DNA of 64,000 nt from Qipengyuania sp. HL-TH1 (lineage in GTDB: Bacteria; Pseudomonadota; Alphaproteobacteria; Sphingomonadales; Sphingomonadaceae), in NCBI RefSeq assembly GCF_036365825.1, contig NZ_CP142675.1, forward strand, positions 372,001-436,000, given 5' to 3'. Shown in pieces: positions 43,978-58,294 of this stretch. A program made the translations under genes and the position numbers. Each line of letters opens with the position of its first letter. The stretch's first letter is position 1. The notes under the pieces were generated by a model. That model was given only the letters and a program-made list of their open reading frames with translations. It was not told the origin of the DNA and did not search any database.

Positions 43978-44730
43978 TCAGTCGAGCGCAAAATCGACCG
44001 TAGTCACCACACGGACTTTCTTGAACGGCGTATCGCCAATACCCCATCCGCCCGCTTCGCCATCGCGGGCGTCGATCGAGAAATAGCCCTGCGTCGCCTT
44101 GTGGATGCCGCCCACCGCAGCGCCGCTGTCCTGCGCGAACTGCTCCGCCGCCGCGCGCGCGTCCTTGGTCGCCTCGGCCACCATTTCGGGCTTGATGTCA
44201 TTGAGCCCGGTGAAGGTGTAGCTGATCCCCGATCCGTCTTCGAGCACCACGCCATCGCGCACCAGCTCGGCCTGCCGGCGAACCGCGCGCTGGGCGCGGT
44301 CGATATCGCGCGTGCGCAAGACGGTGCGCTGGCGCACAGTGTAGAACAGGGTCCCGTCATTGGTGTAGCTCGAAACATTGATCCCGGCCGGGGTCAGTTC
44401 CTCTTCGGGAAAGCCTAGCTCTTCAAAAAAGGCCCGCACGGCCTCGGCGTCGCGATCGGTGTTGGCTTGCGCGGTTTGCAGATTGGTCGCGGTAGAAGCG
44501 AACGACACCGTCCATGTTGCCAGATCGGCAGTAACCTCGCGCTCGGCCAGACCGCGCACGGTCACGCTGCGCTCGGCCGCTTTCATGCGCACCAACCCGT
44601 CGCCAAGTACGAAGCCGCCGACGATCAGGCCCAGCGCGACAATGCTCGCGCTTCCCAGCCAGCGCTTCAGCGTTGCATCGCCATGTCGCGGTGTGGCACC
44701 ATTGTGCACGCTTTCGGTTTCTTCGGGCAT
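43978..44730 (-). CDS. SIMPL domain (DUF541) protein
   Basis: A 250-residue protein with an N-terminal membrane anchor (SIVALGLIVGGFVLGDGLV) and a periplasmic SIMPL domain (VTVRGLAEREVTADLATWTV, SSYTNDGTLFYTVRQRTV). E. coli YggE, a member, is linked to oxidative-stress relief. ATG at 44730 is chosen; an upstream in-frame ATG adds 70 residues across the divergent gloA promoter. Function unproven. Confidence 0.85.
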   Translation of the reverse strand: MPEETESVHNGATPRHGDATLKRWLGSASIVALGLIVGGFVLGDGLVRMKAAERSVTVRGLAEREVTADLATWTVSFASTATNLQTAQANTDRDAEAVRAFFEELGFPEEELTPAGINVSSYTNDGTLFYTVRQRTVLRTRDIDRAQRAVRRQAELVRDGVVLEDGSGISYTFTGLNDIKPEMVAEATKDARAAAEQFAQDSGAAVGGIHKATQGYFSIDARDGEAGGWGIGDTPFKKVRVVTTVDFALD

Positions 44731-44821
44731 GTTCGCCTTCCTCTCTGACCTGTGTCTCCCAAGACTGGCGATAGGGCTTGAGCGATGAACCGTGTTTGAA
44801 TAGCGATGAATGGAGTTTTGC

Positions 44822-45259
44822 TTGACCAAATATCTGCACACAATGATCCGCGTGAGCGACCCCGATGCGACGGTGGCGTTCTTCAAGCTGATCGGTCTTG
44901 AGGAAGTGCGCCGCTTCGATGTCGAGGCTGGGCGCTTCACGCTTATCTTTCTCGCCGCGCCGGGGCAGGAAGGCGTGGCCGAGGTCGAGCTGACCTATAA
45001 CTGGCCAGCCGAAGACGGCAGCGCGCCGGAAGAATACACGGGCGGGCGCAATTTCGGCCATCTCGCCTACCGGGTCGAGAATATCTACGAGACCTGCCAG
45101 GCGATCCTCGATGCGGGACATACGGTCCACCGCCCGCCGCGCGACGGGCATATGGCCTTCGTCAAGACGCCCGACGGGATTTCGGTCGAACTGCTGCAGG
45201 ACGGCTATCTCGACCCGCAGGAACCCTGGGCCAGCATGGAGAACACCGGGAGCTGGTAA
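44822..45259 (+). CDS. gloA: Lactoylglutathione lyase (glyoxalase I)
   Basis: A 145-residue VOC-fold metalloenzyme converting methylglyoxal-glutathione hemithioacetal to S-lactoylglutathione. Metal ligands are His in KYLHTMIRV, Glu in EVELTYNW, His in FGHLAYRV and Glu in ISVELLQ. The TTG at 44822 is preferred: GGAG (44812-44815) is seven bases away and MTKYLHTMIRV is the family start. The ATG at 44810 would add MEFC. It sits between SIMPL and nhaA. Confidence 0.92.
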   Translation: MTKYLHTMIRVSDPDATVAFFKLIGLEEVRRFDVEAGRFTLIFLAAPGQEGVAEVELTYNWPAEDGSAPEEYTGGRNFGHLAYRVENIYETCQAILDAGHTVHRPPRDGHMAFVKTPDGISVELLQDGYLDPQEPWASMENTGSW

Positions 45260-45283
45260 GCTCTCGGTGCCTCATCGGCCAGC

Positions 45284-46495
45284 TCAGTCGATATAGGGCG
45301 AGCGCGCATCATCCGGATGCGTCGCCGACAGTCGCAGGATGACATAACCGGCGATGGCGGAGATCAGCGATCCGAGCAGGATGCCGATCTTCGCCTCGTT
45401 GATCAGCAATTGCTGCCCGGCAAAGGCCAGCCCGCTGATGAACAGCGACATGGTAAAGCCGATCCCGCACAGGATCGAGACGCCCCAGATCTCGGGCCAG
45501 GTGGCCTGGTCGGGGCGGGGTGCGAAACCGAGCTTGTCGGCGGCCACGATAGCGGCGAAGATGCCCACCTGCTTGCCAATGACGAGGCCCGCGGCAATCG
45601 CCAGTGGTAACGGAGCGAGCAGGTGCTCGAGCCCCATCCCGGCCAGCGGCACGCCGGCATTGGCGAAACCGAATACGGGCACCACCAGATAGGCGCTCCA
45701 CGGGGCGAGGCCATGCTCCATGCGTTCGACCATCGTCTGGTCGTCAGGGCCGACCATCGGGATGCACAGCGCGGCGACCACGCCCGCGATCGTCGCGTGG
45801 ATGCCCGAATTGAGCACAAAGTACCACAGTGCCAAGGCTAGCAGGATATAGGGCCAGTAACGCGCCACGCGCATCCGGTTGAGCACCATCATTGCGACCA
45901 CCACGCCCGCCGAGGCAGCCAGCCAGCCGAGCTTGATATTCGCCGTGTAGAACAGCGCGATCACCATAACCGCGCCGATATCGTCGACGATCGCCACAGT
46001 CAGCAGGAACAGCCGCAGCGATGCGGGGCAGCGATTGCCCAGCAGGCCGAGCACGCCCATCGCGAAGGCGATGTCGGTCGCCGCAGGGATCGCCCAGCCG
46101 CGCAGCAGTTCGGCATCGCCGCCGACCACGCCGACATAGACCAGCGCCGGGATCGCCATGCCCGCCGCCGCCGCCAGGATCGGCAGACGGCGCGATTGCG
46201 CGGTGGAGAGCTGCCCTTCGATCCATTCGCGCTTCACCTCGAGCCCGACGACGAAGAAGAACACCGCCATCAAGCCGTCGTTGATCCACAGGTGCAGATC
46301 ATCGAGTTTGGGGATCGGGGTCCAGGGCAATTCGCCGTAGAACAATTGCTCGTATTCGCCGGCCAGCGGCGAATTGGCCGCGAGCATTGCAGCGGCCGCG
46401 ACGAGGATGAGCAGAATGCCCGCCGAGGCGTCGCTGACGAAGAGCGCGCGGACGGGGGCAAACACGAGGCGAAATGCTGAAGGGCGTTCGGTCAT
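45284..46495 (-). CDS. nhaA: Na+/H+ antiporter NhaA
   Basis: A 403-residue inner-membrane antiporter with about 12 helices. Ion-binding aspartates appear in PAATDIAFAMGVLGLLG and LTVAIVDDIGAVMVIALFY, and the conserved end CGIGFTMSLFISGLAF is present. It extrudes Na+ at alkaline pH, consistent with a marine or saline organism, together with the CPA1 antiporter at 23189. ATG at 46495; a GTG at 46504 adds three residues and is possible. Confidence 0.95.
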   Translation of the reverse strand: MTERPSAFRLVFAPVRALFVSDASAGILLILVAAAAMLAANSPLAGEYEQLFYGELPWTPIPKLDDLHLWINDGLMAVFFFVVGLEVKREWIEGQLSTAQSRRLPILAAAAGMAIPALVYVGVVGGDAELLRGWAIPAATDIAFAMGVLGLLGNRCPASLRLFLLTVAIVDDIGAVMVIALFYTANIKLGWLAASAGVVVAMMVLNRMRVARYWPYILLALALWYFVLNSGIHATIAGVVAALCIPMVGPDDQTMVERMEHGLAPWSAYLVVPVFGFANAGVPLAGMGLEHLLAPLPLAIAAGLVIGKQVGIFAAIVAADKLGFAPRPDQATWPEIWGVSILCGIGFTMSLFISGLAFAGQQLLINEAKIGILLGSLISAIAGYVILRLSATHPDDARSPYID

Positions 46496-46576
46496 CTTGG
46501 GCACGCTCTCTTTCGCAAAGCGGCCCGCGTTGCAAGTCTTGAAGCACGCGGTTATCCAGAAAGGCAGGGGGTACGC

Positions 46577-47980
46577 TTGGTATCTGGGGCATTCACGGTC
46601 GCTGAATGGTTTTTGGTCGTACAGCACGAGCTGCTGCTGTTCGCGGCAGCCTTTTTCACGCTCGGCATAATCGATGAATTTGCGCTCGACTGTACCTATC
46701 TCTGGTGCCGGTTGACCGGACGCATCCGCACCCCGCGGCTCGACGAAGCCGGATTGGCCGGAATCGACGGCTTGGCGGGGCGCGCGGCCGTGTTCATTCC
46801 CGCGTGGGAGGAAGCCGATGTCATCGGACCCACGCTGGTGCACATGCTCGATGCCTGGCCGCAGGATGAACTCACGGTCTATGTCGGCTGTTATCGCAAC
46901 GATGTCTCGACCATGGCCTCGGTCGTCGCTGCAGTGCGCGGCGATCCGCGCGTCCGGCTGGTGGTGCATGGCAAGGATGGACCGACGTCCAAGGCCGATT
47001 GCCTGAACCGGCTCTATGCCGCTTTGGCGGAAGACGAGCAGCGCTCGGGCGTGGGAGCACGGATGGTCGTGCTGCACGATGCGGAAGACATGGTCGATCC
47101 CGCCGCGCTCGACCTGCTCGACCAGGCGCTGTGGCACGCGCATTTCGTCCAGCTTCCGGTGCTCGCGCTGCCGCAGCGTCATTCGCCGTGGATCGGGTCG
47201 CATTATTCGGACGAATTTGCCGAAGCGCATGGCAAGACGCTGGTGGTGCGCGATGCGCTGGGCGCGGCGATCCCGGGGGCAGGGGTGGGTTGTGCCATCG
47301 CGCGCGGCTCGCTCGGCCAGCTCGCGCATCGGCAGGGCGGCAAACCCTTTGCCGAGGAATCGCTGACCGAAGATTACGAGCTTGGCCTGAAGATCGCGCA
47401 GGCGGGCGGGCAGGGCCGGTTCCTGCGTGTGCGCGGGGCCGATGGACGGCTGATCGCGACCCGTGCCTTCTTCCCCTCACGGCTCGACCAATCGATCCGG
47501 CAGAAGACGCGCTGGATGCATGGCATTGCCTTGCAGGGGTGGGACCGGCTGGGCTGGGACAGCGAGCCGGTCGAACTGTGGATGCAGTTGCGCGACCGGC
47601 GCGGCCCGCTGGCAGCGATCCTTCTGGTCGTGGCCTATCTGCTCGTGTGTCTCGTCGCCGTGGGCCTGATCCTAGAGCAGTTGGGACTGGTCGAACCGCC
47701 CCCGACCACGCCGCTGTTAAGCGTGCTGTTCTGGATCAATTTCGTCGGGCTGGCGGGACGGTTCGCGGCGCGGGCCTGTTTCACCGCGCGCGAATATGGC
47801 TGGCGACAGGGCCTGCTCGCGATCCCGCGGACACTGGTGTCGAATATCGTCTCGATCATGGCCGGGCGGCGTGCGCTCGCCGCTTATGTCGGCACTTTGC
47901 GCGGAGCGCCGATCGTCTGGGACAAGACCGAGCACCGCGATCATCCGGCGCTCGTCCTGCCGGGTAGGGGTACAGCATGA
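46577..47980 (+). CDS. NfrB-like membrane glycosyltransferase (GT2)
   Basis: A 467-residue inner-membrane glycosyltransferase. One N-terminal helix precedes a GT2 domain with the early PAWEEADVIGPT, the DxD-like LHDAED, the catalytic TEDYELG and the QKTRW motif of processive synthases, and then three to four C-terminal helices. The nearest described relative is NfrB, whose product in E. coli is an exported glycan used by phage N4. It lacks the long c-di-GMP-binding C-terminus of NfrB. TTG start at 46577 (ribosome site GGGGG). The stop overlaps the next gene by four bases. Confidence 0.85.
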   Translation: MVSGAFTVAEWFLVVQHELLLFAAAFFTLGIIDEFALDCTYLWCRLTGRIRTPRLDEAGLAGIDGLAGRAAVFIPAWEEADVIGPTLVHMLDAWPQDELTVYVGCYRNDVSTMASVVAAVRGDPRVRLVVHGKDGPTSKADCLNRLYAALAEDEQRSGVGARMVVLHDAEDMVDPAALDLLDQALWHAHFVQLPVLALPQRHSPWIGSHYSDEFAEAHGKTLVVRDALGAAIPGAGVGCAIARGSLGQLAHRQGGKPFAEESLTEDYELGLKIAQAGGQGRFLRVRGADGRLIATRAFFPSRLDQSIRQKTRWMHGIALQGWDRLGWDSEPVELWMQLRDRRGPLAAILLVVAYLLVCLVAVGLILEQLGLVEPPPTTPLLSVLFWINFVGLAGRFAARACFTAREYGWRQGLLAIPRTLVSNIVSIMAGRRALAAYVGTLRGAPIVWDKTEHRDHPALVLPGRGTA

Positions 47981-49113
47981 CCCATGCGGTCGCCCGGCGG
48001 CAGGGTCAGCCTGTGCTGTTCCTCGGCCTTTTACTGGCGGGCTGGTGCCTGCTGCGGGTGCTCACCTGGGAAAGCCCGTGGCCGCAGGCACTCGGACTGC
48101 CCGAGCCGCTCCACTTCGCCAGCGCCGATCTGCGCCAGCCCTACACCGCAGCCGGGCTGAACGATGGTATCGTCGCTCTCCTTGCGAGCAATGACCGCCT
48201 CGCAGATGAAGCCGCAGGGCGTTCCGCACCGCTACCTGTTTTCCGCAGCCCGGTAGCAAGTACTGCCCAGCGGCCGCCTTTCGAGCGATCCGACCCCCTC
48301 GAACATTTCGACACGCACCGGCGCGCTGCTGGCCACAATCTGTTGTTCGCCGCGGGGATGGCAAGCCTGCCGCTACCGCGCAGCGTTGCCGCCCTGCTCG
48401 ACCGCGAGCAGGGCATGCTGCAGCCTGCCACCCGGTCGATCCCGCGCCGGGCATCATCCCCGTGGCGCTTCGATGGCTGGGTCGTGCTGCGCGAGGACGG
48501 TCTCCAGCTTTCCGAGAGCGGCACGCGTCCAGCCAGCTATGGCGCGAGCCAGCTTGGCGCAGTTCTGTCCTACCGCCTCGCACCCGGAACGCCGCATGCC
48601 CCCGCCGCCTATCTTCGCGCCAGCCGTGCGCTGGTCGATGGCGGCGAAACCGAAGGTGCGCTGGGACTGCGCGCAAAACCGTTCGGACGCATCCCGCTCG
48701 CCCTCCATGCGGAGGCCCGGCTGACCATCCGGCCGGGCGACAGCCCCGAAATACGCCCCGCAGCCTTCGTGGCCGGCGGTTTCGACCGTATCGACCTGCC
48801 CGCACAGTTGGTGGCGCGCGGATATGGCCAGGCCGGCTATGTCGGCGGCGAATTCGCCACTGCGTTTGCCGATGGCGCTTTCGTGGCCGAGCGCGAGGTC
48901 GCGCGGTTTGATCTTGGCCGCGTGGCGCTGGGCGGCGGTGCGTGGGGCGGCGCGCAGCAGGGTGCGGCGCGGCTCGACATCGGGCCAAGCCTCACCGTCG
49001 ACCTGCGCCTCGGCGCGGCGCCCGCGCGGATCGAGGCCGACTATCGCTGGCGCGTGGCGGGCAATGCCGAGCCCGGCAATGGCGGGGTCGTGACGCTTTC
49101 GACCGGTTTCTGA
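47977..49113 (+). CDS. Outer-membrane partner of the NfrB-like transferase (NfrA-C-like)
   Basis: A 378-residue protein with an N-terminal hydrophobic signal or anchor (PVLFLGLLLAGWCLLRVL), an unstructured middle, and a C-terminal half of alternating strands (QLGAVLSYRLAPG; AEARLTIRPGDSPEIRPAAF; QAGYVGGEFATAFADGAFVA) ending in a terminal Phe. This is the beta-barrel part seen in NfrA-like proteins, here without the long TPR half. It is coupled to the transferase by an ATGA overlap, so the pair probably makes and exports a surface glycan. Its last 85 bases are duplicated 4.55 kb downstream. Confidence 0.7.
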   Translation: MTHAVARRQGQPVLFLGLLLAGWCLLRVLTWESPWPQALGLPEPLHFASADLRQPYTAAGLNDGIVALLASNDRLADEAAGRSAPLPVFRSPVASTAQRPPFERSDPLEHFDTHRRAAGHNLLFAAGMASLPLPRSVAALLDREQGMLQPATRSIPRRASSPWRFDGWVVLREDGLQLSESGTRPASYGASQLGAVLSYRLAPGTPHAPAAYLRASRALVDGGETEGALGLRAKPFGRIPLALHAEARLTIRPGDSPEIRPAAFVAGGFDRIDLPAQLVARGYGQAGYVGGEFATAFADGAFVAEREVARFDLGRVALGGGAWGGAQQGAARLDIGPSLTVDLRLGAAPARIEADYRWRVAGNAEPGNGGVVTLSTGF

Positions 49114-49119
49114 CACAGT
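49029..49119 (+). repeat. Direct repeat, copy 1 (3' end of the NfrA-like gene)
   Basis: 91 bases that end six bases past the stop of the NfrA-like gene. They recur at 53582-53672 with five mismatches (about 95% identity), in the same orientation. The repeat brackets the 4.46 kb islet. Confidence 0.97.
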
Positions 49120-49192
49120 CTTAAAATTCGCCTCCGGCGGCGCTATTCTGCTATTAACCATCCCGTAGAAGAGCAATTATCACGCCCGAGTC

Positions 49193-49315
49193 ATGGAACT
49201 TCGAACTATCCTTGCATACGCGCTCATTGCGCTTCTCATGTGTGCGGCAATCGGCGCATTCGTAGCGTATCAGCGCCGCAAGAACCGGCCGAGGAGCTGG
49301 AGGAAGCGCCGCTAG
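49193..49315 (+). CDS. Small single-helix membrane protein
   Basis: A 40-residue open frame. It starts MELRTILAYALIALLMC, a hydrophobic helix running to residue 26, and ends with a strongly basic tail (YQRRKNRPRSWRKRR). This positive-inside layout is typical of real small inner-membrane proteins. There is no strong ribosome site. It lies inside the 324-base gap before the acyltransferase gene. Function unknown. Confidence 0.45.
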   Translation: MELRTILAYALIALLMCAAIGAFVAYQRRKNRPRSWRKRR

Positions 49316-49437
49316 CGGTCTTCTTCGCAGACCAGCCGACTGGCTAGCCAGCGAAGGGCATATGCTGGCAGGTTGACAGATTATCCGTCGCGAGTGCAGG
49401 TGACCGACACGGATTGGATCGCCGAACGACTGGGTAA

Positions 49438-50553
49438 ATGGGCATGCTATCTCAGACTGAACGGCGCGACACGCTGGATTGTGCGAAAGGAATCTTGATA
49501 TTTCTCATCGTGGTCGGTCATAACCACCAATTGGTAGATGCATTTCCAAGCGGGAGATGGTTTCTATACAACTGGCATGTCTATTCTTTTTTCCTGATTT
49601 CCGCCTTTCTTCCCTTTCGCCCGCACGAGCCCGGGTTCTTCTTGACTCGAGCGGTACGCTACTATGTTCCGTTCATCTTGTTTTTCACATTGGTTTGGGC
49701 CTCCACCGGAGGCTGGGATCAACCTCTGCAAAAAGTCTTGGCGTGGCTTTTGGCGGTCGTGATCGGGTCGGCGGATTTTCTGGGAGACGCGTCGGGCGCG
49801 AGACTGTATTGGTTTTTGCCGGCCTTGCTGGGTTTGACCGCAATTCGGTGGGCCATTGCGAAGACCGGGGGATGGGAGCGATATCTACTCCCCGTTGTCG
49901 CTGTGAGCGGGTTCCTGTTCTCCGGGTTGCTACCCGATCGGATTGAACCCTTTATTCCACTTGGCCTTCCGATCGCGCTCTACGCCCTTGGGCCCTGCCT
50001 CGTGTTTGGGGCCTTCATGACATATGCACTGGCGGGAAGCCGTTTCCGGTTGCTCACCTGCGGTGTCCTTTCCGTCATCGTTCTGGCTCTCTGTACCCTC
50101 ATAGCGTCTCTCAGCCCGTCGACATTGGTGCTGGCAGCTTTCAAGTACTACGACATTCGCGAGTTGCATTCGCTCGTCGTCCATGCCCTGCTTGCAATCG
50201 CGGCTTGTTCCGCAGTCGTTTTGCTCTTGGCTTTATCGGTCCGACCGGCCTTGCTGGCGTGGTTGGGGCGTTCCTCTCTGCTGATATACCTCAGCCATCA
50301 GATTTTCTATTCGGTACTGGTGAGGCTGCTTCGAAGAGCGGCCCCCGACGTGCTGCGCGAGCATGAGGTTGCAGTGGGTCTGGTTCTCGTCTTCGCTACT
50401 CTCGTCCTCTCAGGCGCCTTCGCATATTGCGTTACCAACATACCTCGATTGCGACGGATTTTGACCCCTCGGGACCTAGGTGACTGGCTCGAGGGGCTCG
50501 GCGTCCGGCGGGTACGAAATCCTTCGCAGAGTTCCGTCGGAGGTGCCCCGTGA
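49438..50553 (+). CDS. Acyltransferase 3 family membrane protein
   Basis: A 371-residue integral membrane protein with about ten helices. The acyltransferase-3 start is present: RRDTLDCAKGILIFLIVVGH, with the His used in acyl transfer, and later SLLIYLSHQIFY. Such proteins O-acetylate or otherwise acylate surface sugars. Base composition is clearly lower in GC than neighbours (about 44% in 49501-49620 against about 65% nearby), a sign of transfer. It is the first main gene of the repeat-bounded islet. Confidence 0.88.
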   Translation: MGMLSQTERRDTLDCAKGILIFLIVVGHNHQLVDAFPSGRWFLYNWHVYSFFLISAFLPFRPHEPGFFLTRAVRYYVPFILFFTLVWASTGGWDQPLQKVLAWLLAVVIGSADFLGDASGARLYWFLPALLGLTAIRWAIAKTGGWERYLLPVVAVSGFLFSGLLPDRIEPFIPLGLPIALYALGPCLVFGAFMTYALAGSRFRLLTCGVLSVIVLALCTLIASLSPSTLVLAAFKYYDIRELHSLVVHALLAIAACSAVVLLLALSVRPALLAWLGRSSLLIYLSHQIFYSVLVRLLRRAAPDVLREHEVAVGLVLVFATLVLSGAFAYCVTNIPRLRRILTPRDLGDWLEGLGVRRVRNPSQSSVGGAP

Positions 50554-50607
50554 GGCGTGAGGCCGCGGCGAGATGCACTTGTGCGGATACTATGCGTGCG
50601 ATACGGG

Positions 50608-50630
50608 TTGGACCTGCCTTTGAGGTCCAA
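50608..50630. repeat. Perfect short inverted repeat
   Basis: TTGGACCT, seven-base loop, AGGTCCAA. It sits 55 bases after the acyltransferase stop. There is no T run, so it is either a weak terminator or an operator. Nothing else is seen in 50554-50792. Confidence 0.5.
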
Positions 50631-50792
50631 TCGTCGCGCCACGTTCCCTGTATTTTTGGATGCACAACCCGTGATGGGTACTGAGCAGGTTGCCGTACCG
50701 CGAATATACGAAGCGAATTGAACGTCGATGACCCTATCTCCTGCTACAACATCGCGCGCGCATAGTCCCGCGCCAGGCTTTGCTGCAGCGGC

Positions 50793-52214
50793 ATGATGCC
50801 CCACTCGCCTTCGGTACCGGTCCGCACGGCAGCTCGTAAACCGAGCAGCAAGGACCAGCTTCTATGGTTTGTGCTGCTCTCTTGCATCGCGCTCGTAGGG
50901 CTCGGGTTCCTGCCGCTGGCCTTTCTTGGAACGCCGTTCCTGAAGCCGATCCATATCTTCGCCGCTGCGCTGCTGTTGCTGAGTCCGACGATGCTCCCGG
51001 GATCCCCCGAAGGCACGGGAATCGTGAGGATGGTGGCATTCGCGTTCTTCACCCAACTCGCGGTGCTGCTGGTTTCGCTGGCGTGGTCGCCCTTGGTCGC
51101 GACGGGTGCGCTTTCCCTCATGATCAGCTTCTCGAACTGCGTGATCGCGCTGGCCTTCTGCTTGATGGCGTCGCGGCTCAGCCTGACGCGTCTGGCAGAT
51201 CTTCTGGCCTATGGCGCTTTCGCTGGTGCCGTAGCGTTTCACCTCTCCTTATTCGTCGGGCACGCGCTCAGTGGTCAAAATGCCATATCGGTCCTCATCG
51301 AAGCAGCGACGAGCGGCGACTTGCGCAATTTCAAAGCGCTCTATTTCGTCGGCGGCATGAAGGGCCTCGGGGTCGAGGGGGTTTCCAGCTTCTTCTCCTC
51401 CATCGCCCCGAAGGCGACCAATTCGTTCGGGAGCGCTTTCGTTACCACGGCGATTGCGGCGGTTCATGTCGTCGCCGCGGACCGGGCGCTTACCAGATAC
51501 CGCAGCGTCAAGCGGGACTGGGCGGTGTGGCTGGCGCTTATAAACGCGGTGTTCGTGATCATGATCGCATTCAGCGACCGCGTGCAGATATACGGTGCCC
51601 TCCTGATAATTGCGCACCTCTCCTATTTCGGTTTCATGCACGGGAATTGGAAGCTCGGCGCATGGCTCACTTTCGGAGGTCTCTGGGTGAGTTTGAGCGC
51701 GATCATGTACATCGCAGTCAGCGCCTCAGCGCAGGGGACTTTCGAGGAATACGCCTACCGGATTATGAACAACCCGAGGTTTACCGACCTCGACCGGGTG
51801 CTGGTAAGGCTGGGCGAGCTCGGGATGCTGGGCGGCGGCATGGGCATCCCGCTGTCATTCAGCGACACCAGCTATCTCTACCCGCACAATCTGTTTCTGT
51901 TCAATTACCTGTCGGCGGGGATGATCGGGCTGCTGGCATCGTTCATCTGGTTCGGGGTGCTGTGCCTGCTCGCAGTCAAAGCCTTCGCCCTCATGATCAA
52001 CCAGCAAATGCCGCGAGCGGTAAGGCGTCTTGCCCTGGGTGCATTCTCGGGTGTGATCTATGTGATTACGCTGACGCAGTTGGTGTCTCAGGGCGATCTG
52101 GACCTTGCCGACTGGTTGGGTCTGGCGATCGCATTGAGCGTGCTCGCCAAAGCGCAGTCCATTCACAACAGGATGGGCGCGCAGAGCCTGTCACGGCCAT
52201 CGCCCGTTCGCTGA
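50793..52214 (+). CDS. O-antigen ligase/polymerase-like (Wzy/WaaL) membrane protein
   Basis: A 473-residue integral membrane protein with 10-12 helices and a large periplasmic loop. The loop-flanking motif YPHNLFLFNYLSAGMIGLL matches the conserved His-Asn region of the WaaL/Wzy superfamily. In that family, the enzymes join glycan repeat units or attach them to a carrier. It lies between two acyltransferases in the islet, suggesting a cassette that polymerises and decorates a surface glycan. Confidence 0.8.
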   Translation: MMPHSPSVPVRTAARKPSSKDQLLWFVLLSCIALVGLGFLPLAFLGTPFLKPIHIFAAALLLLSPTMLPGSPEGTGIVRMVAFAFFTQLAVLLVSLAWSPLVATGALSLMISFSNCVIALAFCLMASRLSLTRLADLLAYGAFAGAVAFHLSLFVGHALSGQNAISVLIEAATSGDLRNFKALYFVGGMKGLGVEGVSSFFSSIAPKATNSFGSAFVTTAIAAVHVVAADRALTRYRSVKRDWAVWLALINAVFVIMIAFSDRVQIYGALLIIAHLSYFGFMHGNWKLGAWLTFGGLWVSLSAIMYIAVSASAQGTFEEYAYRIMNNPRFTDLDRVLVRLGELGMLGGGMGIPLSFSDTSYLYPHNLFLFNYLSAGMIGLLASFIWFGVLCLLAVKAFALMINQQMPRAVRRLALGAFSGVIYVITLTQLVSQGDLDLADWLGLAIALSVLAKAQSIHNRMGAQSLSRPSPVR

Positions 52215-52265
52215 CGACGCCCTATCCGGCGCAGGCGAATGGGTCGGCGAAACCTTCTTCCAATT

Positions 52266-53315
52266 CTATCCTATATCCCGCGCGACCTGTGCCTGACGCC
52301 TGACCTTGCTGCGAAGCGTCTCTACCAGTGGGTCGATCCCATACACGACGGCGCAGGACAAGATGAGGAGAACAGGCAAAGCAACTGCAAGGGCTGCCAG
52401 GCCCGGCAAGCTCGCCCCGTGGTATGGTTCGCCAAGAACGAAATAGGCCGCGATCATTCCGGCAGGCCAGTGCAGAAGGTATATCGGGTAGCTGAAATCT
52501 CCGATGCGCTTGTCAAGCGATCGCCACGGCATCTTGGTGCCGAAAAGATAGACTACGGTGCCCGCGGCGAGGAGCGCATTGACGACATTACCGATCGCGC
52601 GAACGCGCCAGTCGAGATCCCCGAACGCATATAGCGCCAGCATGGCGAGGCAGAGACCCCAGCGCCCGAACACGAGGCCGGCAAGCGTTTCCCAGCGCCG
52701 GCCGATCGCAGTCTCGAGCTCGGTGCGGAAATGATACGCCGCTGCGCCGATAGCAAAAGGCAGGCTGCCACCCATGATCGAGCCATAGACCGCATGCTGT
52801 CCCACGTCGAAGAGCAGCGCCGCCAGCCAGTAGCCAGCTGAGGCAGAAAGCCAGAGAAGGGTGCTTGTTTTGGTGCGCGATAAGCCGAGGGCGATCAGCG
52901 CATACCAGAAGATTTCGACGGTCAGCGCCCAAGTGGCAGGCGACAGCCGCGGGAACACCTCTTGCGGGTAAAGCGACGGGTAAATCAGCGTGAGGTTGGA
53001 GAGCCATTCGCTGGCCGTTTGGGGCGCCGTCAGCGCGGGATGATATGCGGAGGCGAAGGCGGGCAGTATCGCGATGAGCGCCAGGGCAACAGCGCAGGCG
53101 AACCAATGGGCGGGCAGTAGCCTCAGCGCGCGATTGGTGGCGAAGCGCCAGCGTCCTTGCTGCGTGTACCCATAACTGCCCTGCATGATGAGAGTCATGA
53201 GGAAGCCGGAGAGGACAAAGAACGCTACGACCGCATAGGGGCCGAATATCTTCATCGAGATGAGGTGTGTCGCGACCACCTCGAGGGCGAGTAGCGTGCG
53301 CCAGATACCGAACAT
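52266..53315 (-). CDS. Acyltransferase 3 (OafA/YrhL-like) membrane protein
   Basis: A 349-residue protein with about ten helices. Family marks are IWRTLLALEVVATHLI (with the active His), VVAFFVLSGFLMTL, NRALRLLPAHW and a late DFSYPIYLLHWP. It should transfer acyl groups to surface sugars. It is transcribed opposite to the other islet genes and converges on the polymerase gene, with 51 bases between stops. Confidence 0.9.
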   Translation of the reverse strand: MFGIWRTLLALEVVATHLISMKIFGPYAVVAFFVLSGFLMTLIMQGSYGYTQQGRWRFATNRALRLLPAHWFACAVALALIAILPAFASAYHPALTAPQTASEWLSNLTLIYPSLYPQEVFPRLSPATWALTVEIFWYALIALGLSRTKTSTLLWLSASAGYWLAALLFDVGQHAVYGSIMGGSLPFAIGAAAYHFRTELETAIGRRWETLAGLVFGRWGLCLAMLALYAFGDLDWRVRAIGNVVNALLAAGTVVYLFGTKMPWRSLDKRIGDFSYPIYLLHWPAGMIAAYFVLGEPYHGASLPGLAALAVALPVLLILSCAVVYGIDPLVETLRSKVRRQAQVARDIG

Positions 53316-53384
53316 GTTCTCTCCCCTAGGGTGTGTTTATCCGGTATTTTCGGACGCGCCTAGCCTGCTTGCTTGGTGAGTGCT

Positions 53385-53507
53385 TTACCGATTGCCAATA
53401 GCAGCCAATATGAATGCCGCTAGTAGCAAGCAAGCCCCGCCGAACACGAAGTAGGCGAATGTCGCATGGCAGGTAGTCCAGTCCTCGCCTGAGATCACAT
53501 CAACCAT
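53385..53507 (-). CDS. Possible small membrane protein
   Basis: A 40-residue open frame starting MVDVISGEDWTTCHATFAYF, with a hydrophobic stretch to the end (GGACLLLAAFILAAIGNR). No good ribosome site is seen. Kept at low confidence because it lies in otherwise empty sequence near the islet boundary. Confidence 0.25.
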   Translation of the reverse strand: MVDVISGEDWTTCHATFAYFVFGGACLLLAAFILAAIGNR

Positions 53508-53555
53508 CGGCGGCTTCGATTATGGCGCGCGTCCTTTGGGGCTGGCGGTAGGTGA

Positions 53556-53666
53556 AGGCTCTCGCTCGCAGCAGAGGATGCGATCAAGGCCGACTATCGC
53601 TGGCGCGTGGCGGGCGATGCCGAGCCGGGCAATGGCGGGGTTGTGACGCTTTCGACCGGCTTCTGA
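53556..53666 (+). pseudogene. Remnant 3' end of a second NfrA-like gene
   Basis: In the frame that ends at 53666, the peptide RLSLAAEDAIKADYRW then a run like the end of the NfrA-like protein (DAEPGNGGVVTLSTGF) can be read. Upstream it meets a stop at 53553. Similarity to the intact gene continues weakly for about ten codons beyond the near-identical repeat. The remnant is thus a broken 3' end of a related allele, left at the islet border. Confidence 0.8.
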
Positions 53667-53672
53667 CACAGT
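53582..53672 (+). repeat. Direct repeat, copy 2
   Basis: Second copy of the 91-base repeat, offset 4553 bases from 49029-49119, five mismatches. It lies 41 bases before the TauE gene. Confidence 0.97.
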
Positions 53673-53712
53673 TCAGCTTTTATCCGTCACCCGGCTGCGA
53701 TAGGGCGCAGGC

Positions 53713-54618
53713 ATGGACGTCTACCTCCCCATCGCGAACCTGTCCGTCAACGGACTATGGATCGTCGCGCTGGGGGGGCTGACGGGGATCCTTTCGGGCT
53801 TGTTCGGCGTGGGTGGCGGTTTCCTGACTACGCCGCTGCTGATCTTCTACGGCATCCCGCCGACCGTGGCCGCGGCTTCGGCCTCGACTCAGGTCACCGG
53901 TGCCAGCGTCACCGGCGTGCTGGCGCATGGCGGGCGCGGCGGGGTGGATTATCGCATGGGCGCGGTGATGGTGGCGGGCGGCGTGATCGGTTCGGGCTTC
54001 GGCGCGCTTTTGTTCCGGTTCTTCCGCGCGATCGGCCAGATCGACGTGGTTATCAGCGCGCTCTACGTCGTCCTGCTCGGTACCATCGGGATGCTGATGG
54101 CGCGCGAAGCGGTCCAGACGATCTGGGGCAAGGGCGGTTCGCAAGCCGCGCGGCGGCGGCACCACCCTCTTGTCGCCAGCCTGCCGATGCGTTGGCGCTT
54201 CTACCGCTCGGGTCTCTATATCTCCCCGATCGCCCCGCTGTTGGTGGGCGTCGTCGTGGGCGTGCTGACCATGCTCATGGGCGTGGGCGGCGGGTTCATT
54301 CTCGTGCCCGCGATGCTCTATATCCTCGGGATGAGCGCCAATGTCGTCGTCGGCACCTCGCTCTACAACATCCTGTTCGTGACCATGGCGACCACGATCA
54401 TGCACTCGCTGACCACCAAGGCGGTCGATATCGTGCTGGTCTTCCTGCTGCTGGTCGGCTCGGTCACGGGTGCGCAGATCGGTTCGCAGATCGCGGTCAA
54501 GGCGAAGCCCGAAGTGCTGCGCCTGATCCTCGCCGCGACTGTTCTGGCGGTCGCCTTCCGCATGTTCCTCGGCCTGTTCTACCAGCCCGAGGAAATCTAC
54601 ACGTTGTATCCGCTATGA
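53713..54618 (+). CDS. TauE/SafE family sulfite/anion exporter
   Basis: A 301-residue inner-membrane protein with eight or so helices in two repeats. Family repeat motifs are GILSGLFGVGGGFLTTPLL and GVLTMLMGVGGGFILVPAML. Members export sulfite, sulfoacetate or similar organic anions. It is followed, with a four-base overlap, by the TIGR02186 gene, a pairing that is common in alphaproteobacteria. It starts just after the islet border. Confidence 0.93.
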   Translation: MDVYLPIANLSVNGLWIVALGGLTGILSGLFGVGGGFLTTPLLIFYGIPPTVAAASASTQVTGASVTGVLAHGGRGGVDYRMGAVMVAGGVIGSGFGALLFRFFRAIGQIDVVISALYVVLLGTIGMLMAREAVQTIWGKGGSQAARRRHHPLVASLPMRWRFYRSGLYISPIAPLLVGVVVGVLTMLMGVGGGFILVPAMLYILGMSANVVVGTSLYNILFVTMATTIMHSLTTKAVDIVLVFLLLVGSVTGAQIGSQIAVKAKPEVLRLILAATVLAVAFRMFLGLFYQPEEIYTLYPL

Positions 54619-55367
54619 GGGCGCTGCTGCTTCTCCTCTTCGCCTTTGCGCTGATGGGCCAGCGCGATCCTATCCTCGTGCCCGAAGTCAGCCAGCACGA
54701 GGTGCAGGTGCGGCAGGGGTTCACCGGCACCGAACTGCTGCTGTTCGGCGCAGTGCTCGACCCGCAGGGCCGCGCGGCTGGCAGTGATTACGACATCGTG
54801 GTCGTGCTCAAGGGCCCCTCCGAACCCGTCCGGCTGCGCGAGAAGGAACGCTTTGTCGGCGTATGGGTCAATGCCGCGACCAGCGATTTCCGCTCGGTCC
54901 CGTCCTATTTCGCGGTCGCATCCTCGCAGCCGATCGACGCGATCGTCGACGAGAAAACCGCCGCGATCTACGAATTCGGGACCGATTACATCCAGCTGTC
55001 GCCCAGCGGGGTGATCGACCCCGAGGAACAGGCGCGGTTCAAATCCGGGCTGGTCGATCTCAAGACCCGCCAGCAGCTCTACAAGCAGGATTTCGGCGGG
55101 GTCCAGATCAGCGAACAGGTGCTCTACCAGTCGCGTATCTCGCTGCCCTCCAATGTCTCCACCGGCACCTATACGGCAGAGACCTTCGCGGTGCGCGATG
55201 GCCGGGTGATTGCCTCGGCGCTGGCAGAGGTCGAGGTCAAGAAAGTCGGCTTCGAACGGATCGTCGCGGTCTACTCGCAGGAATGGGCGCTGGTTTACGG
55301 CCTTCTGGCGGTTGCGCTGTCGGTCGGAATGGGCTGGGCGGCCGGGCGATTATTCGCGCTGATCTGA
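54615..55367 (+). CDS. TIGR02186 family transmembrane protein
   Basis: A 250-residue protein with a signal peptide, a beta-rich periplasmic domain (SQHEVQVRQGFTGTELLLFG, YDIVVVLKGP) and one C-terminal membrane helix (ALVYGLLAVALSVGMGWAAG). This matches the alphaproteobacterial TIGR02186 family, usually encoded with TauE-like exporters. Its function is unknown; a role in the exporter complex is likely. Coupled to the exporter by ATGA. Confidence 0.88.
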   Translation: MRALLLLLFAFALMGQRDPILVPEVSQHEVQVRQGFTGTELLLFGAVLDPQGRAAGSDYDIVVVLKGPSEPVRLREKERFVGVWVNAATSDFRSVPSYFAVASSQPIDAIVDEKTAAIYEFGTDYIQLSPSGVIDPEEQARFKSGLVDLKTRQQLYKQDFGGVQISEQVLYQSRISLPSNVSTGTYTAETFAVRDGRVIASALAEVEVKKVGFERIVAVYSQEWALVYGLLAVALSVGMGWAAGRLFALI

Positions 55368-55466
55368 CCTTTCCCGGGCACTATCGTTGACCACATCTTA
55401 AGCAGTTTCGGTCAGGCAGGCTGCCAGCGCGATGGGCGCGTTTGACGTTGGGGCACAGCCAGATCG

Positions 55467-57443
55467 ATGAACGACACAGGCAATCCGGATTACCGCAGTT
55501 TCGACCCCGCGCAGGAAGACGGCGCGGAGCCGCCCCAGCCGCGTAGCAATTCGCTACGCGACCGCATCCGCCGCAGCGCCGAACAGTCCTCCGCTCCGGC
55601 GGTGTCGCCTTCGGGCTATGTCCACCAGCCGCAGCAGCCTGTTGCCGAGATCAGCCAGCCGGAACCAGAGGGACAGCCGCAGCCCGCGCCGCTCGAGGTG
55701 CCCCGCAGCGAAGACCCTGCGGAACGTCCCGTCCCGCCCGCTGCCGCCACGCTCGGTGAAGCACCGCCGCGTCCGCCCGAACCTGCCGCCGCACCCGAGA
55801 CCGGCGAGGTGCCCGAGCCGGCGCAGGAACCCGAGGCAGTCGGGGAGAACGCCGGCAAGCCGATCGGCGTCGTGCTCGAAATCGCCGGTTCCAGTTCGCA
55901 GATCGCGATCGACCTCCAGCGGCTGAACGAATGTGCCGACGATACCGATCCGTCGGTCGCCATGGCCGGCCAGGTCGGCTCGCAGATCAAGATCCGCGTG
56001 GGCAACAGCTGGCTGCTCGCCAGCGTGCGCAACCAGCGCCAGGACCGCAAGGCGGGGTCGATCCTCGCCAATATCGACTTCCTCGGCGAAGGCACCGAAG
56101 AAAAGCTGACCGGCAAACTCCACCGCTTCCGCCGCGGTGTGACGCGCTATCCGGTCCCCGGCGCGATGGTCTATCCCGCGACGACGGCGGATTTGAAACA
56201 GGTCTATGCCAGCGACGGGCGCAGCGCGATCACCATCGGCAAGGTCTATCCGACCAAGGACATCCGCGCGGGCATCTATGTCGATGCCATGCTCGGCAAG
56301 CACTTCGCGCTGCTCGGGTCGACCGGTACGGGTAAATCGACCAGCGCCGCGCTGATCCTGCACCGCATCTGCGAGGCCGCGCCCGAGGGCCATATCGTGA
56401 TGATCGATCCGCATGGCGAATATGCCTCGGCGTTTCGCAATACGGGCGTGATCCTCGACGTCTCGAACCTGCAGATGCCCTACTGGATCATGAACTTCGA
56501 GGAACATTGCGAAGTGCTGATTACCAGCACCGGCAATGACCACCAGGTCGACGCCGACATCCTCGCCAAGTGCCTGCTCAAGGCGCGGCAGAAGAGCCGG
56601 CTGGCCGAGCACATGGGCAAGATCACCGTGGATTCGCCGATCCCCTACCTGCTCTCGGACCTCTCGAACGAGATCCAGGACGCGATGGGCAAGCTCGACA
56701 AATCGACCAATTCCGCCCCCTATATGCGGATCAAGAACAAGCTCGACGAGATCAAGGCCGATCCGCGCTACCAGTTCATGTTCTCGGGCATGCTGGTGGC
56801 CGACACGATGGCCGATTTCATCGCCAAGATCTTCCGCATGCCGTCGAACGGCAAGCCGATCTCGATCATCGATGTGTCGGGCGTCCCGTCGGACATTACC
56901 TCGACCGTGGTGGCGGTGCTCAGCCGGCTGGTGTTCGATTTCGCCATCTGGGGCCGCGACGAGCGGACCTCGCCGATCCTGCTGGTCTGCGAAGAAGCCC
57001 ACCGCTATGTCCCCAACGAGAAGAACGCCGATGGCAATTCGGTCGGCACCATCCTGTCGCGGATCGCCAAGGAAGGCCGTAAGTACGGCATCAGCCTGGG
57101 CCTGATCACGCAGCGTCCCTCCGACCTTGCCGAAGGCGTGCTGTCGCAGTGCGGCACGATCCTCTCGATGCGTCTCAACAACGACCGCGACCAGGAATTC
57201 GTCCGCGCCGCGATGCCCGAAGGCGCGCGCGGTTTCCTCGATGCGATCCCCGCACTGCGCAACCGCGAGTGCATCATCTGCGGCGAGGGTGTCGCCGTCC
57301 CGATCCGCATGAGCTTCGACAATCTCGAGGAATCGAAACGGCCCGCGTCGGAAGACCCCAGCTTCGTCGAATTGTGGAACAATGCCGGCGGCGAAGAGGA
57401 CATGGTCCAGCGCACCGTCCAGCGCTGGCGCTCGCAGGGCTGA
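55467..57443 (+). CDS. HerA/DUF87-type ATPase (orphan)
   Basis: A 658-residue hexameric-type ATPase. The first 130 residues are a proline/glutamate-rich disordered tail. A HAS-barrel-like domain follows (about 140-270), then Walker A GSTGTGKST near residue 285, Walker B LLVCEEAH, and an arginine-finger area (SRIAKEGRKYGISLGLITQR). HerA proteins translocate DNA with the nuclease NurA in archaea, or work with other effectors in bacteria. No nuclease gene is adjacent. Common in alphaproteobacteria as a single core gene; role unknown. Confidence 0.85.
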   Translation: MNDTGNPDYRSFDPAQEDGAEPPQPRSNSLRDRIRRSAEQSSAPAVSPSGYVHQPQQPVAEISQPEPEGQPQPAPLEVPRSEDPAERPVPPAAATLGEAPPRPPEPAAAPETGEVPEPAQEPEAVGENAGKPIGVVLEIAGSSSQIAIDLQRLNECADDTDPSVAMAGQVGSQIKIRVGNSWLLASVRNQRQDRKAGSILANIDFLGEGTEEKLTGKLHRFRRGVTRYPVPGAMVYPATTADLKQVYASDGRSAITIGKVYPTKDIRAGIYVDAMLGKHFALLGSTGTGKSTSAALILHRICEAAPEGHIVMIDPHGEYASAFRNTGVILDVSNLQMPYWIMNFEEHCEVLITSTGNDHQVDADILAKCLLKARQKSRLAEHMGKITVDSPIPYLLSDLSNEIQDAMGKLDKSTNSAPYMRIKNKLDEIKADPRYQFMFSGMLVADTMADFIAKIFRMPSNGKPISIIDVSGVPSDITSTVVAVLSRLVFDFAIWGRDERTSPILLVCEEAHRYVPNEKNADGNSVGTILSRIAKEGRKYGISLGLITQRPSDLAEGVLSQCGTILSMRLNNDRDQEFVRAAMPEGARGFLDAIPALRNRECIICGEGVAVPIRMSFDNLEESKRPASEDPSFVELWNNAGGEEDMVQRTVQRWRSQG

Positions 57444-57456
57444 TCCGCCCATATGA

Positions 57457-57552
57457 GTCATTGCGAGGCGCCGCAGGCGACGCGGCAATCCAGAGTACTC
57501 GGCACTGGCCCGAACGCTCGGAACTGGATTGCTTCGCTACGCTTGCAATGAC
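57457..57552. repeat. Imperfect palindromic repeat element
   Basis: A 96-base unit opening GTCATTGCGAGG and ending GCAATGAC, with further matching arms such as CGGCAATCCAGAG and GGATTGCTTCGC. This type of dispersed palindrome is abundant in sphingomonad genomes. It fills the gap between the HerA and queE genes, where it may end transcription in both directions. Confidence 0.85.
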
Positions 57553-57559
57553 TGACGTC

Positions 57560-58294
57560 TCAAGTGCCCCGCGTATCGCCGAACAAATGGATATGCAGCC
57601 GGTCGCTCATCCGGAAGCCGTGCTCGACGCATAGCGGCGCGAGCCATTGCTCGCGGTCGCGCAGCGTCTCGCTGTCGGTGCCTTCGGGCATTAGGAAGAC
57701 GTGGTCAGGCTTGAACCGGTAGCGATCGCGCAGCGCCAGCACCTCGTCGAGGTCCGCCGGCGCAGCGATCACGAATTTGAACCAGGCGCGCGGGTCGGTG
57801 GCATAGGCGTCGAGCCGCTCGGGGATCAGGGCCAGTTCGGCCGGATTGCCGCTATGCGCGAGCTTGGGGCTGACGTTGAACTGGTCGATGCGGATGTCGA
57901 GCGCGGGGCTTGCCCTGGTCGTGCCATTGGTTTCGATCTCCACCGTGACATCGGGCAGATGGCCCAGCAGCCGCGCTAGCGCCGGGGCCTGCAGCAAGGG
58001 TTCGCCGCCGGTGATGACGAGGCGCTTCTGGCCCAGCGCGGTGATCCGCGCGGCGACCTCCTCCTCGCCCAGCGTGAGCTGGTTGGCCGCGCGATCGAAT
58101 TCCACCCCGTCGCGGTGCGGCCGCTCGTCGCCCGCGAAATGCCAGGTATAGGCGGTGTCGCACCACACGCAGGCGAGATTGCAGCGCGACAGGCGCAGGA
58201 AGGTGCAGGGCATGCCCGCGCTCGGCCCTTCGCCCTGCACGCTGGCGAAGATCTCCGGCTCACCCGGAGCCTGCGTGGCGAGGACTAGCGGCAT
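57560..58294 (-). CDS. queE: 7-carboxy-7-deazaguanine synthase
   Basis: A 244-residue radical SAM enzyme of queuosine biosynthesis, converting carboxy-tetrahydropterin to 7-carboxy-7-deazaguanine. The [4Fe-4S] cluster motif is CNLACVWC (C-x3-C-x2-C), the N-terminus has SVQGEGPSAG, and ITGGEPLLQ is the SAM site. It stands alone here; queC and queD are not in view. Confidence 0.95.
   Translation of the reverse strand: MPLVLATQAPGEPEIFASVQGEGPSAGMPCTFLRLSRCNLACVWCDTAYTWHFAGDERPHRDGVEFDRAANQLTLGEEEVAARITALGQKRLVITGGEPLLQAPALARLLGHLPDVTVEIETNGTTRASPALDIRIDQFNVSPKLAHSGNPAELALIPERLDAYATDPRAWFKFVIAAPADLDEVLALRDRYRFKPDHVFLMPEGTDSETLRDREQWLAPLCVEHGFRMSDRLHIHLFGDTRGT

Follow-up and report, generated by a model that had tools for sequence, protein, structure and literature searches.

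A repeat-bounded islet in Qipengyuania carries a polymerase-like gene that may serve a remote exopolysaccharide cluster

Main

How does a small group of surface-glycan genes come to lie between two copies of the end of one gene, and which glycan does it serve? The question is raised by a window of 64,000 nucleotides (the whole stretch of DNA that was analysed; contig NZ_CP142675.1, positions 372,001 to 436,000) from Qipengyuania sp. HL-TH1, a strain of the Q. citrea type. Within it, an islet with two acyltransferase-3 genes (a and b) and a Wzy/WaaL-like polymerase gene is bounded by direct repeats of the 3' end of a gene for an NfrA-like, predicted outer-membrane barrel (the barrel gene), next to a gene for a TauE/SafE-family permease (TauE). 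A preliminary description, made from the letters of this DNA, held that the islet had arrived by recombination within the barrel gene and that it decorates a glycan made by the adjacent NfrB/NfrA-like pair. We here compare the locus across the genus and find an insertion limited to one lineage, whose polymerase-like gene tracks, and is missing from, an exopolysaccharide (EPS) cluster about 1.03 Mb away. We consider it moderately probable that the islet is a detached polymerase module of that remote cluster.

Results

We evaluated the border between the barrel gene and TauE in a genus sample of 60 genomes, the window genome (G000) included. TauE is present in 60/60 and the barrel gene in 48, and the empty-site count covers these 48, the 12 genomes without the barrel gene being left out. 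In 45 of the 48 a single barrel gene is followed by TauE at a spacing of 44-58 bp (exactly 46 bp in 36), as the preliminary description had predicted for strains without the cassette, and these empty sites exclude that the same genes and both repeats are shared genus-wide. Inserts at this border were found in the window genome (4599 bp) and in strain H150 (G023; 2092 bp), and in no others among the 48. DNA searches with the unique end parts of the islet scored the best 12 candidates at most per genome. Acyltransferase a has no match in the other 59 genus genomes, and acyltransferase b has partial matches in three other genus genomes only, at 38-39% identity (both E <= 1e-15). The data support a lineage-limited insertion at the barrel-gene/TauE border in two Q. 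citrea-type strains. In the remaining genome (G028; 1/48) barrel gene and TauE are not neighbours: its best barrel-gene match (G028:C1:1458641; E 9e-44, residues 98-378) lies ~1.29 Mb from TauE, which is either a broken neighbourhood or a match to a paralogue.

The repeats that bound the islet (Table 1) stand in direct orientation and are identical at 86 of 91 positions. A search of the complete 3.33 Mb genome with the repeat, in which the best 40 of 45 candidates were scored, returned just these two matches at E <= 0.001 (165 and 142 bits), and the top direct repeat in 20 trinucleotide-block shuffles of window positions 44000-58000 reached 31 bits, far under the real pair. The anatomy given in the preliminary description, with an intact gene at copy 1 and a remnant at copy 2, is confirmed. 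Identity between the copies ends six bases after the stop codon, where copy 1 runs into the islet and copy 2 into the native sequence before TauE. Since the 40 nt 3' of copy 2 show one difference to the empty site of the nearest species, G043, copy 2 would by its position be the native 3' end of the barrel gene. Of the five sites at which the copies differ, three are third codon positions, which suggests that copy 2 diverged inside a working gene, that is, as another allele, although five sites are few; one amino-acid change among the differences is also present in other species. The weak similarity that was said to continue about ten codons further upstream of copy 2 does not hold up at the DNA level, where it is no better than in shuffles (a fraction of 0.954 of 1000 score at least as high). 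At the protein level the match runs ~6 residues past the copy 2 repeat, with an in-frame stop just above. A reading of copy 2 as the decayed rest of a longer copy was rejected, the upstream DNA being unlike the gene.

Comparison of the window strain with H150 shows which parts of the islet vary within the species. The flanks of the islet are ~96-98% identical between the two strains, and H150 has the same left junction and the left 276 bases of the islet. After these the H150 sequence jumps, at a common 4-base GAGT, into the last codons of acyltransferase a, and hence this gene has most simply been deleted there. The Wzy-like gene is kept at 91% DNA identity, acyltransferase b has no match in H150 (E <= 1e-15), and the H150 islet ends with a 40-bp barrel-gene remnant. 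Ahead of that remnant, a 23-base stretch resembles window positions 53507-53529 (a score reached by 1/300 shuffles), and the right junction differs between the strains. Given that H150 has lost acyltransferase a and is without acyltransferase b, the acyltransferases are optional cargo. The synonymous divergence (dS) of the Wzy-like gene between the strains is 0.287, with a ratio of nonsynonymous to synonymous divergence (dN/dS) of 0.15, compared with dS of 0.08-0.13 for the genes of NfrB, NfrA and TauE and 0.04-0.12 for ten EPS-cluster genes. The Wzy value is close to the species-level dS of NfrB, NfrA and TauE against G043 (0.21-0.31), and hence the gene appears to stay constrained and has probably been replaced in one strain by the allele of another lineage. 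One ancestral insertion, followed by loss and exchange, would explain both strains. The expectation that other strains may carry different cassettes at this border was borne out in that the content differs between the two carriers, but the difference is most simply gene loss and polymerase-allele exchange rather than whole-cassette swapping. Outside the islet, 400 bp of a HerA-like ATPase gene (window 55533-55932) are only 81-89% identical to H150, with surroundings at ~95-99%.

The Wzy-like gene has homologues in four of the 60 genus genomes (the window genome, H150, G026 and G044; E <= 1e-3), and a beta-helix-like marker of an EPS cluster is present in the same four (E <= 1e-20). The probability of this co-occurrence by chance is 2e-6, and 3e-5 if the citrea strains count as one; the marker is labelled beta-helix-like for a match of the G026 homologue just under the PF13229 cut-off and nothing more. 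In G026 the Wzy homologue lies within the EPS cluster, together with Wzc, Wza, a PF04932 protein, the beta-helix-like protein, a glycosyltransferase, sulfotransferases and Wzx, and in both G026 and G044 it adjoins the PF04932-type gene of the cluster, in G044 directly before it. Both citrea strains carry a cluster of the G026 type, in the window genome at G000:C2 ~1451000-1469000, a sulfotransferase-rich Wzx/Wzy EPS cluster with an initiating sugar transferase, glycosyltransferases, sulfotransferases, Wzx, Wza and Wzc. In these citrea clusters the slot of the Wzy gene, between the PF04932 and beta-helix-like genes, is filled by an open reading frame (ORF), in the window strain a sulfotransferase (PF00685), and tblastn found no Wzy remnant in the slot (best match in the region E 0.06, outside the slot). 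Two ORFs only of the citrea cluster have at least 8 hydrophobic segments, those for Wzx and the PF04932 protein. In the nearest species, G043, the barrel-TauE site is empty and the EPS locus is a different one, which encodes a PF04932 protein along with two more polytopic proteins that have no Pfam family. Most simply, this pattern would mean that the polymerase absent from the Q. citrea EPS cluster is supplied by the islet. The G043 EPS locus sits at seemingly the same flanks as the citrea cluster, one of which we take to be an isocitrate-dehydrogenase-like gene.

Beyond the genus, we searched an evenly drawn family sample of 397 genomes, in which the genus is represented by the window genome and few others. 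The beta-helix-like marker was found in the window genome only. The Wzy profile, with the best 4 candidates at most scored per genome, matched the window genome and, weakly, G029, where the match is a second PF04932 protein within that genome's own EPS locus. Neither search lists G023, G026 or G044 among its matches, and so these were presumably not drawn.

The protein of the Wzy-like gene has 10 hydrophobic segments in a simple Kyte-Doolittle count, as in a polytopic membrane protein. It is linked to PF04932 through two intermediates that both exceed the cut-off of that family, the G044 homologue (E 5e-13) and the G029 profile match (E 7e-6), and we infer a polymerase of the Wzy type. Pfam assigns the protein to no family: its sole match at E <= 10, to Hol_Tox (E 1.8), was put down to chance, and FosA-like matches far under the cut-off were ignored. 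In a database of 5.8 billion proteins, in which the best 7997 word-sharing candidates were scored, four protein clusters match the Wzy-like protein. The cluster sizes, 61 members for Wzy and 42 for each acyltransferase, would agree with the polymerase-like gene being kept more widely than the acyltransferases.

Conservation upstream of TauE offers a possible account of why copy 2 persists. Across 28 genus loci, CTT is used in 26 of 27 Leu codons at position -5 and GGC in 26 of 28 Gly codons at position -2 of the barrel gene, and the spacer between barrel gene and TauE holds two conserved blocks. The count covers 28 of the 45 empty-site genomes, and in two of these (L029 and L040) the spacer is out of register. 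The 40-bp remnant of H150 still covers the coding part of this element, and the spacer is identical in both strains. The conserved stretch may be a control element of TauE that inserts must leave intact, and copy 2 has probably been retained because it overlaps this element.

The features of the locus are collected in Table 1. The preliminary description correctly listed two acyltransferase-3 genes and a Wzy/WaaL-like polymerase between the repeats, and also one gene of distinctly lower GC, which is acyltransferase a (56.5% against 64.0% for the window). The label NfrA is loose, since the barrel-gene protein has no Pfam match; its AlphaFold2 (AF2) model has 12 strands at a mean predicted local distance difference test (pLDDT) score of 67.6, and its Foldseek matches are barrels at low TM-scores. 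The NfrB-like protein passes the NCBIfam model NF011307 (581.2 bits; cut-off 431) and fails the true NfrB model NF008411 (270.8 bits; cut-off 1170). Two 40-codon ORFs at the ends of the islet gave no family above cut-off. Near the left end, 46 bases resemble the stretch before a diguanylate-cyclase-like domain in G018, and the right flank could be read as a RuvX-like stretch; neither has Pfam support and hence neither is claimed as gene debris. Elsewhere in the window, an NhaA-type antiporter ORF (45284-47329, minus strand) is extended far at its N-terminus, antisense to the NfrB-like gene; as the Pfam match begins at residue 297, the extension is probably over-called. Apart from the pair that bounds the islet, the window has one repeat at E <= 1e-6, an overlapping direct repeat at 22895-23112 (~131 bp, 75% identity).

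Table 1 Features of the islet and its borders, in window positions
Feature	Position	Strand	Remarks
NfrB-like family-2 glycosyltransferase	46577-47980	+	PF13641; upstream of barrel gene
Host gene, NfrA-like, 378 amino acids, intact	47977-49113	+	ORF; predicted 12-strand outer-membrane barrel ending in Phe
Direct repeat copy 1	49029-49119	+	Last 85 bases of barrel-gene ORF (stop included) and 6 nt
Left unique part of islet	49120-49437	.	49120-49395 common to strain H150
40-codon membrane-like ORF	49193-49315	+	Left islet end; one hydrophobic stretch
Acyltransferase-3 gene a	49438-50553	+	PF01757 (Acyl_transf_3); low GC; most simply deleted in H150
Wzy/WaaL-like polymerase gene	50793-52214	+	Polytopic ORF; cargo retained by both strains
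Acyltransferase-3 gene b	52266-53315	-	PF01757 (Acyl_transf_3); not in H150
Right unique part of islet	53316-53581	.	53507-53529 resembles H150 just ahead of its remnant
40-codon membrane-like ORF	53388-53507	-	Right islet end; one hydrophobic stretch
Direct repeat copy 2	53582-53672	+	Remnant, ends 40 nt ahead of TauE start; by position probably the displaced native gene end
Conserved element upstream of TauE	53649-53712	+	Overlaps last host-gene codons; position carried over from genus alignment
TauE/SafE-family permease, right border gene	53713-54618	+	PF01925

Discussion

In the order of events that we propose, an ancestor of Q. citrea would have acquired, at the barrel gene's 3' end and through recombination in that gene, DNA that encoded a polymerase of the Wzy type and one or more acyltransferases. 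The host gene would have been left intact with copy 1, and its native end, copy 2, pushed beside TauE. Homology on the barrel side and an irregular right junction would fit homology-facilitated illegitimate recombination. The polymerase of the islet would then join the repeat units of the remotely encoded EPS, to which the acyltransferases would add optional acyl groups.

Several observations weigh against this proposal. No donor or integration machinery was found among the islet gene families or in searches of phage and plasmid records: the protein search, which covered Wzy with the acyltransferases not included, gave no relatives in 50,697 phage or 72,556 plasmid records, and the islet DNA had no match in plasmid records. 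Over the 91 bases, copy 1 differs from G043 at 4 sites and copy 2 at 6, so that the sequence-based case for copy 2 being native is weaker than the positional one. Arrival by recombination in the barrel gene, with an old allele end left behind, is supported in part, by the insertion and by position, although copy 1 is the nearer to G043. The co-occurrence of Wzy and cluster rests on three independent genomes, the G044 homologue is ~25% identical, and the weak profile match in G029 comes without the cluster marker, though within that genome's own EPS locus. The one PF04932 protein that the citrea cluster still has could be the polymerase. For the islet Wzy, no match to PF04932 was obtained at E <= 10, hhalign against the cluster's PF04932 proteins gave nothing (probability 0.1%), and the AF2 model (mean pLDDT 38.9) is too poor to use. 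No match to a sigma-70 pattern was seen in the element upstream of TauE. The evidence from base composition points both ways. In overall GC the islet genes (56-62%) lie closer to the EPS genes (58-61%) than to neighbouring genes (65-70%), whereas at third codon positions Wzy (0.776) and acyltransferase b (0.740) have GC values closer to NfrB/NfrA (0.76-0.78) than to the EPS genes (0.63-0.72).

That retained PF04932 protein also opens the possibility, which we regard as rather unlikely, that the islet polymerase is a second, alternative Wzy that causes serotype conversion by altering the linkage that the polymerase of the cluster makes, much as alternative wzy genes of Acinetobacter prophages change capsule linkage (PMC13228068). 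However, both genes lie together in the clusters of G026 and G044, and the EPS locus of G029 has two PF04932 proteins, hence both genes look like standard parts; moreover, no prophage gene is among the three main islet genes. The idea of the preliminary description, an islet that serves the adjacent NfrB/NfrA-like glycan through its acyltransferases, has adjacency in its favour. Acyltransferase-3 proteins are able to modify many surface glycans. The barrel gene is nonetheless without an insert in 45 of 48 genomes, the cargo common to both strains is the Wzy-like gene, which co-occurs with the remote cluster and is missing from it, and NfrB-type glycosyltransferases are synthase-like and should not need Wzy; we therefore find this assignment improbable.

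Integrase-driven elements typically duplicate the 3' end of a target gene and restore the gene, and the islet could be the remnant of such an element that targeted the barrel-gene end and has since lost its integrase. The duplicated end is indeed present and the left junction is identical in both strains, but there is no recombinase among the three main islet genes and no family above cut-off for the two short ORFs, the other 45 syntenic genus genomes have no insert at this border, no relative of Wzy is present in the phage and plasmid records and no islet DNA in the plasmid records, and the right junction differs between the strains. We give this origin equally little credence. A further possibility is that the islet is an excisable switch: the repeats would recombine, by RecA or another route, the module would leave as a circle, and barrel gene and TauE would be restored exactly. 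Cells without the islet would lose the polymerised EPS, may escape phages that bind it, and could regain the islet from neighbours, in the way described for wzy of Salmonella Typhimurium, where 113-bp repeats, a 2558-bp deletion and a circle detected by polymerase chain reaction were reported (PMC12074656). An in silico crossover yields the intact 378-amino-acid gene and the standard 46-bp spacing in both strains, with identical runs between the copies of 29 bp (window strain) and 37 bp (H150). At repeat position 78 (0-based), the TauE-side copy of H150 has the T of copy 1, where window copy 2 and G043 have C, which looks like sequence exchange between the copies, at one site. Yet the islet is present in both available citrea strains, none with an empty site having been seen, and the copies are not perfect repeats: their longest identity is near the minimal RecA length quoted in PMC12074656. 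Excision is in our estimate unlikely. Unlikelier by a shade is the bolder combination of an independently evolved alphaproteobacterial polymerase switch, in which the sole polymerase of a sulfated EPS lies in a repeat-flanked, excisable, allele-swapping islet; its loss would precisely restore the locus, and cells would toggle their EPS type or trade it for another, with phages as the probable selective force.

If the islet is a detached polymerase module, the polymerase of a pathway can leave its cluster for a small, separately exchanged islet outside enterobacteria, and EPS annotation based on clusters would overlook a key enzyme. It would give a second case, with a gene-end repeat, to the idea of repeat-flanked wzy as a module that changes or drops a surface sugar. 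The retained gene end would exemplify how the control region of a downstream gene could fix the place at which foreign DNA settles.

No published account of this islet was found in the literature searched. The closest precedent would be the unlinked, repeat-flanked and excisable wzy (rfc) of S. Typhimurium, with 113-bp direct repeats and shown excision (PMC12074656; unlinked location also PMC12004945). In both, a polymerase gene lies off its cluster (here presumably the remote EPS cluster), between unrelated neighbours, in an islet of a few kb with direct repeats of ~100 bp. Replacement of the right repeat in S. Typhimurium gave small colonies and a growth defect, for which the authors consider the thrS promoter as a possible cause (PMC12074656). 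The Salmonella repeats are perfect and intergenic, whereas those described here match at 86/91 and derive from a gene 3' end; the cluster is sulfotransferase-rich, and acyltransferases ride along. A similar case is the conversion of capsule or O-antigen by wzy and acetyltransferase genes of prophages (PMC13228068; PMC4815439), in that unlinked wzy and O-acetyltransferase genes act on a polysaccharide made elsewhere. However, the three main islet genes include no phage gene or integrase, and the resident cluster is without the gene rather than overridden. Homology-facilitated illegitimate recombination leaves orphan 3' ends in type VI secretion system effector arrays and Rhs loci (PMC5361080), where, as may be the case here, one-sided homology anchors new DNA and the old gene end is displaced downstream; in contrast to those arrays, the islet does not diversify its host gene, whose end is nearly identical, and the cargo bears no relation to that gene. 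In a related bacterium, the promonan EPS cluster of Sphingomonas likewise combines a Wzx/Wzy pathway with an acyltransferase, but there wzy and the OafA acyltransferase gene both sit inside the cluster (PMC11340318).

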